The notes under the pieces are model-generated. The model saw only the letters and a program-made list of their open reading frames with translations. It was not told the DNA's origin and did not search any database. Both the position numbers and the translations under genes were made by a program. A stretch of DNA of 64,000 bases, taken from assembly GCF_013415885.1 (NCBI RefSeq), contig NZ_CP058910.1, positions 496,001-560,000 on the forward strand, in the 5' to 3' direction. This stretch comes from Halosimplex rubrum. GTDB taxonomy: Archaea > Halobacteriota > Halobacteria > Halobacteriales > Haloarculaceae. Positions 51,727-55,338 of the stretch are shown one piece after another; position 1 is the first letter of the stretch; every line of letters starts with the position of its first letter.

Positions 51727-52560
51727 ATGGAATTCAGCCGTGCGGACTCCCTGGCGCGACTCGAATCGGTCGTCGAGAGCGGCGAACCAGTCATCGGCGC
51801 GGGCGCCGGAACGGGGATCTCGGCGAAGTTCGCCGAGCGCGGGGGCGTCGACCTGCTGATCATCTACAACTCCGGGCGCTACCGGATGAACGGTCGCGGG
51901 TCGCTGGCGGGCCTGCTGCCCTACGGCGACGCCAACGAGATCGTCGTCGAGATGGGTCACGAGGTGCTGCCGGTCGTCGAGGACACGCCCGTCCTCGCCG
52001 GCGTCAACGGGACGGACCCCTTCCGCGACATGGGCGTGTTCATCGAGGACCTCAAACGTCGGGGGTTCTCCGGCGTCCAGAACTTCCCGACGGTGGGACT
52101 CATCGACGAGGACAGCGGCTTCCGCCAGAACCTCGAGGAGACGGGGATGGGCTACGACGAGGAGGTCGAGATGATCCGCGAGGCGAGCGACCAGGGGATG
52201 CTCACCTGTCCGTACGTCTTCAACGAGGACCAGGCCCGCGCGATGACCGAGGCCGGCGCCGACGTGGTCGTCTCGCACATGGGCCTGACCACGTCGGGCG
52301 ACATCGGCGCCGAGACCGCGCTCGACCTCGAGACGGCCGCCGAGCGCGTCCAGGCCCACTGCGACGCCGCCAAGGAAGTCAACGAGGACGTGATGGTCAT
52401 CTGCCACGGCGGCCCGATCGCCTGGCCGGACGACGCCGAGTACGTCCTGAACAACACCGAGGGCGTCGTCGGCTTCTTCGGCGCGTCGAGCATCGAGCGC
52501 CTGCCCACCGAGGGGGCCATCGAGAACCAGGCCCGCGAGTTCAAGGAGATCGACTTCTGA
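51727..52560 (+). CDS. phosphoenolpyruvate hydrolase-like TIM-barrel protein (Tm-1 C-terminal domain type)
   Basis: This 277-residue TIM-barrel has GEPVIGAGAGTGISAKFAERGGVDLLIIYNSGRYRMNGRGSLAGLLPYGDANEIV, VLAGVNGTDPF, FSGVQNFPTVGLID and VMVICHGGPIAWP. These are typical of the family annotated as phosphoenolpyruvate hydrolase, which is also the C-terminal half of tomato Tm-1. The catalytic activity is poorly defined. It is followed after 31 nt by a Tm-1 N-terminal-type (UPF0261) gene, so both halves of Tm-1 are encoded side by side. Confidence 0.88.
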   Translation: MEFSRADSLARLESVVESGEPVIGAGAGTGISAKFAERGGVDLLIIYNSGRYRMNGRGSLAGLLPYGDANEIVVEMGHEVLPVVEDTPVLAGVNGTDPFRDMGVFIEDLKRRGFSGVQNFPTVGLIDEDSGFRQNLEETGMGYDEEVEMIREASDQGMLTCPYVFNEDQARAMTEAGADVVVSHMGLTTSGDIGAETALDLETAAERVQAHCDAAKEVNEDVMVICHGGPIAWPDDAEYVLNNTEGVVGFFGASSIERLPTEGAIENQAREFKEIDF

Positions 52561-52578
52561 TGGCCCCCCACAGCTTCG

Positions 52579-52585
52579 GGAGGTG
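52579..52585 (+). promoter_or_regulatory. Shine-Dalgarno site of the Tm-1-like gene
   Basis: GGGAGGTGG lies 6-7 nt before the GTG at 52592. It decides that start over an in-frame GTG that is part of the site itself (52583). A strong Shine-Dalgarno is expected here because the gene is internal in an operon. Confidence 0.6.
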
Positions 52586-52591
52586 GCGACC

Positions 52592-53809
52592 GTGAGCGTC
52601 GTGATCGTCGGCACGCTCGACACGAAAGGCGAGGAGATCGCGTTCGCCCGCGACGTGATCGAAGCCCAGGGGCTCGATATCCACGTCGTCGACGTGGGCG
52701 TCGTGGGCGACCCGGCGTTCGACCCGGACACGGCCGCGAGCGAGGTCGCCGAGGCCGCCGGGACGACGCTCGCGGCGCTGCGCGAGGCGGGCGACCGCGG
52801 CGCGGCCATCGAGACGATGGGCGATGGCGCGGCCGCGGTCGCCACGCGGCTTCACGACGAAGGAGTCCTCGACGCGGTCCTCGGTCTCGGCGGGTCGGGG
52901 AACACGTCCATCGCGACCGCGGCGATGCGGGAGTTGCCCGTCGGGGTCCCGAAGGTGATGGTCTCGACGATGGCCTCGGGCGACACCGAACCGTACGTCG
53001 GCGCCCGCGACGTCATGATGCTGTACTCGGTCGCCGACATCGAGGGGTTGAACCAACTCTCGCGGCGAGTCATCTCGAACGCCGCGCTCGCGGTCGTCGG
53101 GATGGTCGAAAACGAACCGGACGTCGAGGTCGAGGACCGGCCGACGGTCGGCGTCACGATGTTCGGCGTCACAACGCCCTGCGTCCAGACCGCCCGCGAG
53201 TACCTCGAAGACGCGGGCTACGAGGTCATCGTCTTCCACGCCACCGGGACCGGCGGCCGCGCCATGGAGTCGCTGATCGAGGAGGGCGTCGTCGACGGCG
53301 TCCTCGACGTCACCACGACTGAGTGGGCGGACGAACTCGTCGGCGGCGTCCTGAGCGCGGGGCCCGAGCGCCTCGACGCCGCCGCCGAGGCGGGGATCCC
53401 GCAGGTCGTCTCCGTCGGCGCGCTGGACATGGTGAACTTCGGCCCCCGCGACTCGGTCCCCGCGGAGTTCGAGGGGCGGCGGTTCCACGTCCACAACCCG
53501 CAGGTGACGCTCATGCGGACGACGCCCGAGGAGAACGCGGACCTCGGTGAGATACTGGCGGAGAAGCTGAACGCGGCGACGGGGCCGACGGCGCTCGCGC
53601 TCCCGCTGGGCGGCGTCTCGATGCTCGACGTCGAGGGCGAGGAGTTCCACGATCCGGAGGCCGACGCGGCGCTGTTCGACGCGCTCCGGGCGGGGCTCGA
53701 CGACGGCGTCGAACTGGTCGAGGTCGACACGGCGATCAACGACGAGGCGTTCGCGCGGACGATCGCCGAGCGGCTGGACGAGTCCATGCGCGAGGCCGGC
53801 GTCGTCTGA
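52592..53809 (+). CDS. Tm-1-like ATP-binding protein (UPF0261)
   Basis: This 405-residue protein has SVVIVGTLDTKGEEIAFARDVIEAQGLDIHVVDVG at the start, AVLGLGGSGNTSIATAAMRELP, KVMVSTMASGDTEPYVGARDVMMLYSVADIEGLN, TMFGVTTPCVQTAREYLE and VIVFHATGTGGRAMESLIEEG, all family signatures. Tm-1 N-terminal domains bind ATP; the bacterial and archaeal function is unknown. Co-transcribed with the PEP-hydrolase-like gene, near LarA-like and acid-sugar genes. Confidence 0.9.
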   Translation: MSVVIVGTLDTKGEEIAFARDVIEAQGLDIHVVDVGVVGDPAFDPDTAASEVAEAAGTTLAALREAGDRGAAIETMGDGAAAVATRLHDEGVLDAVLGLGGSGNTSIATAAMRELPVGVPKVMVSTMASGDTEPYVGARDVMMLYSVADIEGLNQLSRRVISNAALAVVGMVENEPDVEVEDRPTVGVTMFGVTTPCVQTAREYLEDAGYEVIVFHATGTGGRAMESLIEEGVVDGVLDVTTTEWADELVGGVLSAGPERLDAAAEAGIPQVVSVGALDMVNFGPRDSVPAEFEGRRFHVHNPQVTLMRTTPEENADLGEILAEKLNAATGPTALALPLGGVSMLDVEGEEFHDPEADAALFDALRAGLDDGVELVEVDTAINDEAFARTIAERLDESMREAGVV

Positions 53810-54055
53810 CGGGGGACCGGCCCACTCGCCGTCGTCGGGCGACCACCGCAGTTCGAGGGTGACCGGGTCGGTGACGAACGGGAGCCGCGACTCGTCGGTC
53901 TCGACCTCGACCGTATCGGGCGGGGGGAGGTCGACCGACTCGCCGTCGACGGGCGGGGCAAAAGGCTCTCCGCCGCGGTCGACCCCGCTCGACCGCCCCG
54001 GGGTCGGCGATGTCGGCGCGAACGTTTATTCGCGCACCGACACAACGTGTCGTCC
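53810..54055. other. intergenic region before the phosphate transporter
   Basis: No complete gene is supported. The minus strand from about 53990 to 53815 translates into a protein-like stretch (e.g. VDLPPPDTVEVETDESRL) but has no start codon upstream and no stop at a sensible place, so it is at best a remnant. The right end carries the promoter of the phosphate transporter transcript. Confidence 0.35.
54016..54035 (+). promoter_or_regulatory. inverted repeat enclosing the TATA box of the phosphate transporter
   Basis: GCGCGAA-CGTTTA-TTCGCGC has perfect 7-bp arms; the spacer and inner arms form the TATA element GTTTATT. It is about 30 nt upstream of the 24-codon ORF at 54056. Binding of a regulator would directly block TBP. 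Confidence 0.65.
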
Positions 54056-54130
54056 ATGATCGGGTCGTCCGCCGACAGGGGGTCGTTCACCGCCGAGTGG
54101 GGACCGTTCGTCGCCGACAGGGGGTCGTGA
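54056..54130 (+). CDS. 24-codon upstream ORF coupled to the phosphate transporter
   Basis: An ATG placed about 30 nt after the TATA box opens a 24-codon frame whose TGA overlaps the transporter GTG (GTGA, 54127-54130). The peptide contains an internal repeat (ADRGSF ... VADRGS) that comes from a 16-bp direct repeat GCCGACAGGGGGTCGT at 54071-54086 and 54113-54128. With a leaderless start it is the first frame that ribosomes would read, and transporter translation would depend on termination-reinitiation. It could be a leader peptide. Confidence 0.5.
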   Translation: MIGSSADRGSFTAEWGPFVADRGS

Positions 54131-55338
54131 ACGTGGTCGCCGTCGGCTTCTGGGCGCTGGTCGTCCTCGCGACGGTCGTGAGCCTCGGCACCGCCTGGAC
54201 GCTGGGCGCCAACAGCAACTCCCCGCCGTTCGCCCCGGCCATCGGCGCCAACGCCATCTCGACGATGCGCGCCGCCTTCCTCATCGGCATCCTCGCCGCC
54301 GCCGGCGCGCTCACGCAGGGCGGATCCATCTCCGAGACCGTCGGCGCCGGCCTCATCGACGGCGTCGCGATCACGTCGCTGGCCGCCACGGCGGGCCTGC
54401 TCACCGCCACCGCGTTCATGGCCTTCGGCGTCTACAGCGGCTACCCCGTCCCCGCCGCCTTCGCGACGACGGGCGCGATGGTCGGCGTCGGCCTCTCGCT
54501 GGGCGGCGACCCCGCCGTCGGGACCTACCGCCAGATCGCGACCTTCTGGGTGCTCGTCCCGCCCGTCTCGGGCGGCCTCGCGTATCTCACCGCGACGATC
54601 CTCCGCCGCGACGACATCCCCGAGACCGTCGGCGTCCCGCTGCTGGCGGCCGTCGTCGGCGCCATCGTCGCCAACGTGCAGTTGAGTGTCATCCCGTCGG
54701 GCCCCGACGCCACGCAGAACTCGCTGGCCGGCCTCGGCGCGGATCTGGTTGGGCTGTCGCCGGTCGCGGGGGTCGAACCGACCGTCGCCGTCGTGACGGT
54801 CGCCTTCGCCGCGCTGAGCTTCCAGTTCATCCGCCGGCGGACCCAGGACTCGGTCGACAAGGGGATCCGGACGTTCCTCGTCGTCCTCGGGAGCGTCGTC
54901 GCCTTCTCCAGCGGCGGGAGCCAGGTCGGGCTGGCCACCGGCCCGCTCGAGAACCTCTACGGCGCCGAACTGGGGCTGCCGGGGATCGTCCTGCTGGCCA
55001 TCGGCGCCGTCGGCATCCTCGGCGGCGCCTGGATGGGCGCGCCGCGACTCCTCCAGGCGACCTCCCGGGAGTACGCCTCGCTGGGCATCCGCCGGTCGAT
55101 CGCCGCGCTGGTCCCGGGATTCGTCATCGCCCAGCTCGCCATCGCCCTGGGGATCCCCATCTCGTTCAACAACATCATCATCTCCGGCGTCATCGGCGGC
55201 GGCCTCGCGGGCGGGTCGGCCGGCGTCTCCCGCCGGAAGATCGGCGTGACGCTGGCGTTCTGGATCGTCACCCTCGTCTCCTCGATCGCCGTCGGGTTCG
55301 GCCTCTACCGGGTGTTCGAAGCGGTTCTAGGCGGCTGA
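54127..55338 (+). CDS. inorganic phosphate transporter, PiT family
   Basis: This 403-residue protein has about 10-11 transmembrane helices and two PiT-type repeats: the first in LGANSNSPPFAPAIGANAISTMRAAFLIGILAAAGA and the second in SFQFIRRRTQDSVDKGIRTFLVVLGSVVAFSSGGSQVGLATGPLENLYG. These match the phosphate permease signature G-A-N-x with Asn/Ser instead of the usual Asp-Val in the first copy. It symports phosphate with Na+ or H+. Start GTG is determined by overlap with the small ORF; no earlier start in frame gives a membrane N-terminus. Confidence 0.85.
   Translation: MNVVAVGFWALVVLATVVSLGTAWTLGANSNSPPFAPAIGANAISTMRAAFLIGILAAAGALTQGGSISETVGAGLIDGVAITSLAATAGLLTATAFMAFGVYSGYPVPAAFATTGAMVGVGLSLGGDPAVGTYRQIATFWVLVPPVSGGLAYLTATILRRDDIPETVGVPLLAAVVGAIVANVQLSVIPSGPDATQNSLAGLGADLVGLSPVAGVEPTVAVVTVAFAALSFQFIRRRTQDSVDKGIRTFLVVLGSVVAFSSGGSQVGLATGPLENLYGAELGLPGIVLLAIGAVGILGGAWMGAPRLLQATSREYASLGIRRSIAALVPGFVIAQLAIALGIPISFNNIIISGVIGGGLAGGSAGVSRRKIGVTLAFWIVTLVSSIAVGFGLYRVFEAVLGG

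Follow-up and report, generated by a model that had tools for sequence, protein, structure and literature searches.

Leaderless small ORFs that are coupled to the following gene are known in mycobacteria, and reinitiation after termination is known in Haloferax (PMC4633059, PMC6728339). According to two studies of Haloferax volcanii (Huber et al. 2019, PMC6728339; 2023, PMC10666635), the translation of overlapping gene pairs is strictly coupled, and Shine-Dalgarno (SD) motifs act in reinitiation and not in de novo initiation. In the same reports, stop-start gaps of 13 or 14 nt reduce the coupling and gaps of 22 or 23 nt abolish it. In this species, 72% of the protein-coding transcripts are leaderless (PMC4983044), and that work also describes small ORFs ahead of larger genes, with 97 transcripts carrying 5'-UTRs of 150-250 nt that yielded 16 low-pI ORFs of 15-31 aa. 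The mycobacterial ORFs combine a leaderless start on mapped transcripts with a stop that meets the start of the next gene in an RTGA overlap, and leaderless initiation and linkage are kept while the peptide is not conserved (Shell et al. 2015, PMC4633059). Furthermore, the concept of a short ORF serving only ribosome delivery is stated in a 2025 review (PMC12548453).

The locus described here lies in a window of 64,000 nt, which is the whole stretch of DNA that was analysed and corresponds to positions 496001-560000 of the 4.48-Mb chromosome of Halosimplex rubrum. It contains a predicted PiT/PHO4 phosphate transporter gene (Table 1), the product of which matches PF01384 across the whole domain (E 4.5e-43, 148 bits against a cut-off of 33.7, profile positions 2-349 of 350). 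Among the best 80 of 112 confirmed loci, its nearest named relatives are Halosimplex species with 90-96% identity. Directly upstream, a PEP_hydrolase-family gene and a UPF0261 gene adjoin as a pair (window 51727-53809), and a convergent phosphoglucomutase/phosphomannomutase-type gene follows on the 3' side. GTG 54133, and not GTG 54127, is the most likely start of the transporter: in 87 of 116 orthologs the start that was chosen aligns to column 3, and an ATG or GTG two codon positions earlier is present in only 13/116 (it occurs in four of the seven Halosimplex species).

Table 1. Features of the transporter leader and gene (window coordinates)
Feature	Position	Strand	Remarks
Promoter core BRE/TATA (GAACGTTTAT) inside a 7-6-7 palindrome	54016..54035	+	Core kept in orthologs; palindrome judged incidental
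Coupling ORF, predicted leaderless, 24 codons + TGA	54056..54130	+	Translation; geometry kept in 78/81 promoter-bearing orthologs
17-bp direct repeat, first copy, inside the coupling ORF	54070..54086	+	Absent from the 10-codon ORFs of three congeners
17-bp direct repeat, second copy, 42 nt (14 codons) later	54112..54128	+	
Weak Shine-Dalgarno-like motif GGGGG, 3' end of the coupling ORF	54120..54124	+	8 nt before GTG 54133
PHO4/PiT-family phosphate transporter	54133..55338	+	PF01384; start column across orthologs; alternative start GTG 54127

Translation confirms the 24-codon ORF that had been proposed ahead of the transporter, running from ATG 54056 (MIGSSADRGSFTAEWGPFVADRGS, followed by the stop) to 54130. 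The first T of TTTAT precedes the ATG of this ORF by 31 nt, a spacing that matches the leaderless-like starts found genome-wide, and on this basis transcription is predicted to begin at the ATG or a few bases before it. With GTG 54133 as the start of the transporter, the stop lies 2 nt upstream and there is no overlap, therefore the GTGA junction over the transporter start that the sequence-only reading had described is probably not the one used. The same reading attributed a repeated ADRGS motif to a direct repeat of 16 bp; the repeat is indeed present, but its length is 17 bp, and the 42-nt spacing places the two copies in frame. The ADRGS repeat is a local feature, as three congeners possess a 10-codon ORF that lacks it. 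The window leader and that of one congener fold no better than shuffled sequences (z 0.23 and 0.03). In addition, a 15-nt inverted repeat with 93% complementarity connects 53867-53881, upstream of the promoter, with 54104-54118 at the end of the small ORF.

For the comparison of orthologous leaders, a transporter match was available in 145 of 146 family genomes, paralogs included. The matches with at least 72% identity numbered 84, of which 70 were taken and 14 of lower identity were left out, and a scan of named genomes contributed the best 80 of 112 confirmed loci; the 150 collected loci gave 116 distinct orthologous PiT (PHO4) loci. Named relatives within these best 80 of 112 include Halosimplex, Haloarcula, Halorientalis and Salinibaculum, together with Halorubrum, Halobellus, Haloplanus, Halobaculum and Salinigranum, the last five of which we take to belong to the Haloferacales side. 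A locus was considered promoter-bearing when TTWW occurred 28-32 nt before an ATG or GTG that was itself 6-160 nt upstream of the transporter. This spacing rule was set after the first leaders had been inspected and was then checked on other genes of the genome, where 318 called genes with an ATG start, from a sample of 464 kb, show a peak of the TTWW-to-start distance at 29-30 nt, the same as in the small ORFs. The 81 promoter-bearing loci are mutually related, and clustering of the leaders by identity lumped nearly all of them into five clusters (four of the five representatives coupled), because the leaders are short and GC-rich; sampling of one locus per genus was used instead.

A TATA element is found 28-32 nt before an upstream ATG or GTG in 81 of the 116 loci, a spacing typical of leaderless genes, and in 78 of these 81 the first in-frame stop falls within 8 nt of the transporter start. 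When the same leaders are read one or two bases later, the counts drop to 2/81 and 7/81, and dinucleotide shuffles of the leaders give a mean of 24.8/81 (sd 2.4, maximum 32 in 1000). With one locus per genus (22 genera), a mean of 21.0 are coupled versus 5.9 after shuffling (sd 1.7, maximum 12) and 0.5 and 1.4 of 22 in the other two frames. Across the sampled orthologs, the coupled ORF is thus present far beyond chance, and the check proposed with the sequence-only reading, namely a comparison of orthologous leaders, comes out in favour of this ORF. Three loci deviate: in L039 the stop lies at +46, no stop was found for the GTG of L093, and the ATG of L072 lies far upstream. Stop-start gaps in the 78 loci are most often +2 (25 loci), -4 (21), +1 (10), +7 (7) and +4 (6), and more rarely -7 (3), -8 (2), -1 (2) and +6 (2). 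All 78 lie between -8 and +7 nt, which places stops on both sides of the transporter start and not just upstream. This range falls within that of coupling Haloferax volcanii pairs (PMC10666635), and the short stop-start distance of haloarchaeal termination-reinitiation is seen in 78 of 78 coupled loci. A strict RTGA overlap is present in 21/78, and not at GTG 54133 in the window, and the +6/+7 gaps (nine loci) differ from the usual overlap.

The 38 loci outside this set of 78 were inspected individually. In nine of them (L018, L032, L036, L037, L040, L106, L115, L132, L152), a long upstream gene overlaps the transporter start by 4 nt, but by 7 nt in L115, and this gene encodes a universal stress protein by Pfam in 8 of 8 scanned cases (L032 was outside the scan). 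A tRNA endonuclease gene overlaps the transporter start by 4 nt in L141. In the Halorubrum-type genomes of L131, L133 and L150, the transporter also follows the tRNA intron endonuclease gene, which ends 28, 61 and 67 nt upstream, and a relay ORF of 11, 22 or 24 codons bridges the distance between the stop of the endonuclease and the start of the transporter, with an NTGA at either junction. In these operons the overlap of the upstream gene or the relay ORF occupies the place of the small ORF, judging from their arrangement. Five further loci (L021, L022, L031, L127, L154) also possess a coupled ORF, with a weaker AT box in front of it as assessed by eye, and in another four (L072, L077, L146, L157) a TATA-like element directly precedes the transporter, which looks directly leaderless. 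No class was assigned to 16 of the 116 loci (L039, L071, L074, L078, L093, L111, L114, L119, L130, L138, L142, L147, L151, L153, L155, L158). Coupled loci amount to 91/116 by the stricter criteria and to 96/116 when the weaker AT-box class is included.

What the ORFs encode varies widely. The coupled ORFs range from 5 to 44 codons, with exactly 10 in 30 loci, they have unrelated sequences, and the leaders are 14-136 nt long. Even within Halosimplex the lengths are 10, 10, 10, 24, 31, 37 and 38 codons; the two longest end with a TAG one base before the start in place of a TGA two bases before, and one of the 10-codon ORFs (L015) has a TAG two bases before the start. As length, frame and peptide vary, the positions of start and stop are what is kept. 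This variability weighs against the possibility that the small ORF is a leader peptide whose sequence senses something, by attenuation or arrest, and thereby regulates the transporter. Such a role would be in line with the Haloferacales-type 10-codon ORFs, the peptides of which are alike (MARTPVxGGR-like) and in which 218/733 codon differences are synonymous in frame compared to 97/645 and 66/619 in the other frames, suggesting a possible constraint on peptide or codons there. Excess synonymous change is absent, however, from the Haloarcula 21-codon ORFs, the Haloarcula 10-codon ORFs (stop at a distance of 7 nt) and the Halorientalis ORFs, and peptide conservation is not a general feature outside the Haloferacales-type genera, hence we regard a sensing peptide as unlikely. 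A different possibility is that the ORF is incidental, with de novo initiation at an SD on a leadered transcript and nearby stops selected only because they terminate accidental translation that enters at the 5' end. In its favour, the stretch ahead of the transporter start is enriched in SD-like elements, as a match of at least 5 bases to GGAGGTGA within ~20 nt of the start is found in 31/78 coupled leaders versus ~7.5 in shuffles, although the window leader has a weak SD only (Table 1). Against this stand the stops on both sides of the start and the relay ORFs, which maintain translation across intervals that could as well have been left untranslated. Moreover, the SD is reported to be non-functional for de novo initiation in Hfx. 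volcanii (PMC6728339), and an incidental ORF seems distinctly unlikely.

The remaining alternatives concern the promoter region. The inverted repeat that had been noticed around the TATA box is present (GCGCGAACGTTTATTCGCGC), and a regulator that binds it and blocks TBP/TFB had been postulated. The palindrome is shared in its exact form with one congener, and it has no second exact copy in the 4.48-Mb genome. Its arms pair at 7/7 positions in 2/81 promoters, both of Halosimplex, at 5-6 of 7 in the other five Halosimplex species and at 0-4 in most other loci. Palindromes of this kind are also unremarkable in the window, which holds 140 inverted repeats with 7-bp arms and spacers of 3-8 nt, or ~1 per 460 bp; a TTWW lies within two of these repeats. 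The element that stays constant across orthologs is a BRE/TATA core like GAACGTTTA, which resembles the motifs described for haloarchaea (PMC4983044), and the segment is best read as a promoter core and not as a conserved operator. Lack of conservation of the inverted repeat was the refutation named for it in advance; as the repeat is not kept outside the genus, the operator is rejected, and a TATA-blocking regulator appears highly improbable. A scan for sigma-70 promoters and terminators, which is not suited to archaea, returned no sites. Finally, the frame of the transporter is open from ATG 54010, and a 442-aa protein that begins there would turn the small ORF into an artefact of an overlapping frame. 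Such an extension would contain the TATA element, and the aligned start codon of the orthologs lies 123 nt further downstream, which makes this start barely credible. Gene callers may mis-annotate the start at this in-frame ATG (window 54010-55338).

The strict coupling in Haloferax, the prevalence of leaderless transcripts and the anatomy of the locus therefore leave a leaderless small ORF that supplies the transporter with ribosomes through termination-reinitiation as the best explanation, which we consider very probable. The transcript would begin at ATG 54056 or a few bases before it, and this ATG would act as a leaderless start that captures ribosomes. The ribosome would then translate a short ORF of largely arbitrary sequence, stop at 54130 and reinitiate at GTG 54133, two bases past the stop, so that the transporter is made; in many relatives, an SD inside the end of the small ORF may help reinitiation. 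In operons, an overlapping upstream gene or a relay ORF would take on this role. Selection would keep the start at promoter distance and the stop at the transporter start, and not the peptide. We infer the start of transcription, the translation of the small ORF, reinitiation and the dependence of the transporter on the small ORF from comparative data. The coupling by termination and reinitiation that had been suggested for this leader is strongly supported by the comparison over ~22 genera and fits the Haloferax work (PMC6728339, PMC10666635).

Compared to the known systems, the locus is closest to the mycobacterial ORFs (PMC4633059), with which it shares a stop at the downstream start and a conserved linkage without a conserved peptide, apart from the weak Haloferacales-type peptide signal; a leaderless start is predicted here as well. 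The mycobacterial cases are bacterial and rest on mapped transcripts and an RTGA overlap, whereas the present one is archaeal and purely comparative, with gaps of -8 to +7 nt, ~22 genera and operon or relay replacements. The Haloferax volcanii pairs belong to the same clade and likewise have adjacent or overlapping stops and starts with an SD at reinitiation, but both partners are ordinary genes there, whereas the upstream partner here is a short ORF without a conserved peptide (PMC6728339, PMC10666635). The uORFs of Hfx. volcanii also precede larger genes in a haloarchaeon (PMC4983044); in contrast to their long 5'-UTRs and low pI, the leaders here span 14-136 nt and few of the 78 peptides are acidic (12 negative, compared to 51 positive and 15 neutral). 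A literature search of limited coverage (titles and abstract openings) returned no description of an archaeal transporter leader of this kind. A single gene is preceded by dozens of short ORFs that are unrelated to each other and in which only the positions of start and stop seem to be under selection. They provide a natural test of archaeal termination-reinitiation, in which relay ORFs and operon overlaps are natural replacements, and they parallel the mycobacterial ORFs in another domain of life. They also suggest that a short ATG frame at a haloarchaeal promoter should be treated as belonging to the translation start and not be ignored. More tentatively, reinitiation could be an obligatory gate, with no de novo entry at the transporter start, in which each lineage would supply the ribosome through a dummy leaderless ORF, a relay ORF or the overlap with an operon gene, and transporter output would be set by changes in the efficiency of leaderless initiation or reinitiation. 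Dummy coupling ORFs may represent a mode of initiation that is general in haloarchaea and missed by annotation.

The coupled design is not general to the transporter family. A ~50% identical paralog of the transporter was examined in 20 relatives, and a TATA-type element lies 26-33 nt before the paralog's own conserved ATG in 9/20, including all seven sampled congeners (the other 11 fail the 26-33-nt rule of the script), whereas among the orthologs of the window transporter only 3/116 carry a TTWW at 28-32 nt from the start of the transporter itself. As a genome background, a simple gene caller was applied to 464 kb (the window plus 400 kb), which yielded 400 genes, 323 with a distance of 60 nt or more to an upstream gene. 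By the approximate starts of this caller, which placed the transporter at 54127, a TATA-linked ATG ORF ends within 8 nt of the predicted start in six of the 323 genes, the transporter included, all as 4-nt overlaps. At least one of the six is presumably an ordinary gene pair, L39e-L31e. Out-of-frame upstream ATGs have ORFs ending at the start in 6/9 cases with a TATA element versus 35/154 without (Fisher p 0.008). Beside the PiT paralog, a conserved gene with no Pfam match (L200, G000:C1:1491675-1492304) has a 24-codon TATA-linked ORF with a 4-nt overlap; in this gene and its relatives (L201-L229), a coupled ORF is found in 9/30 loci and direct leaderless-like starts in others. Similarly, a universal stress protein gene (L173:15984-16437, minus strand) is preceded by its own TATA-linked ORF of 29 codons, with ATGA over the start.
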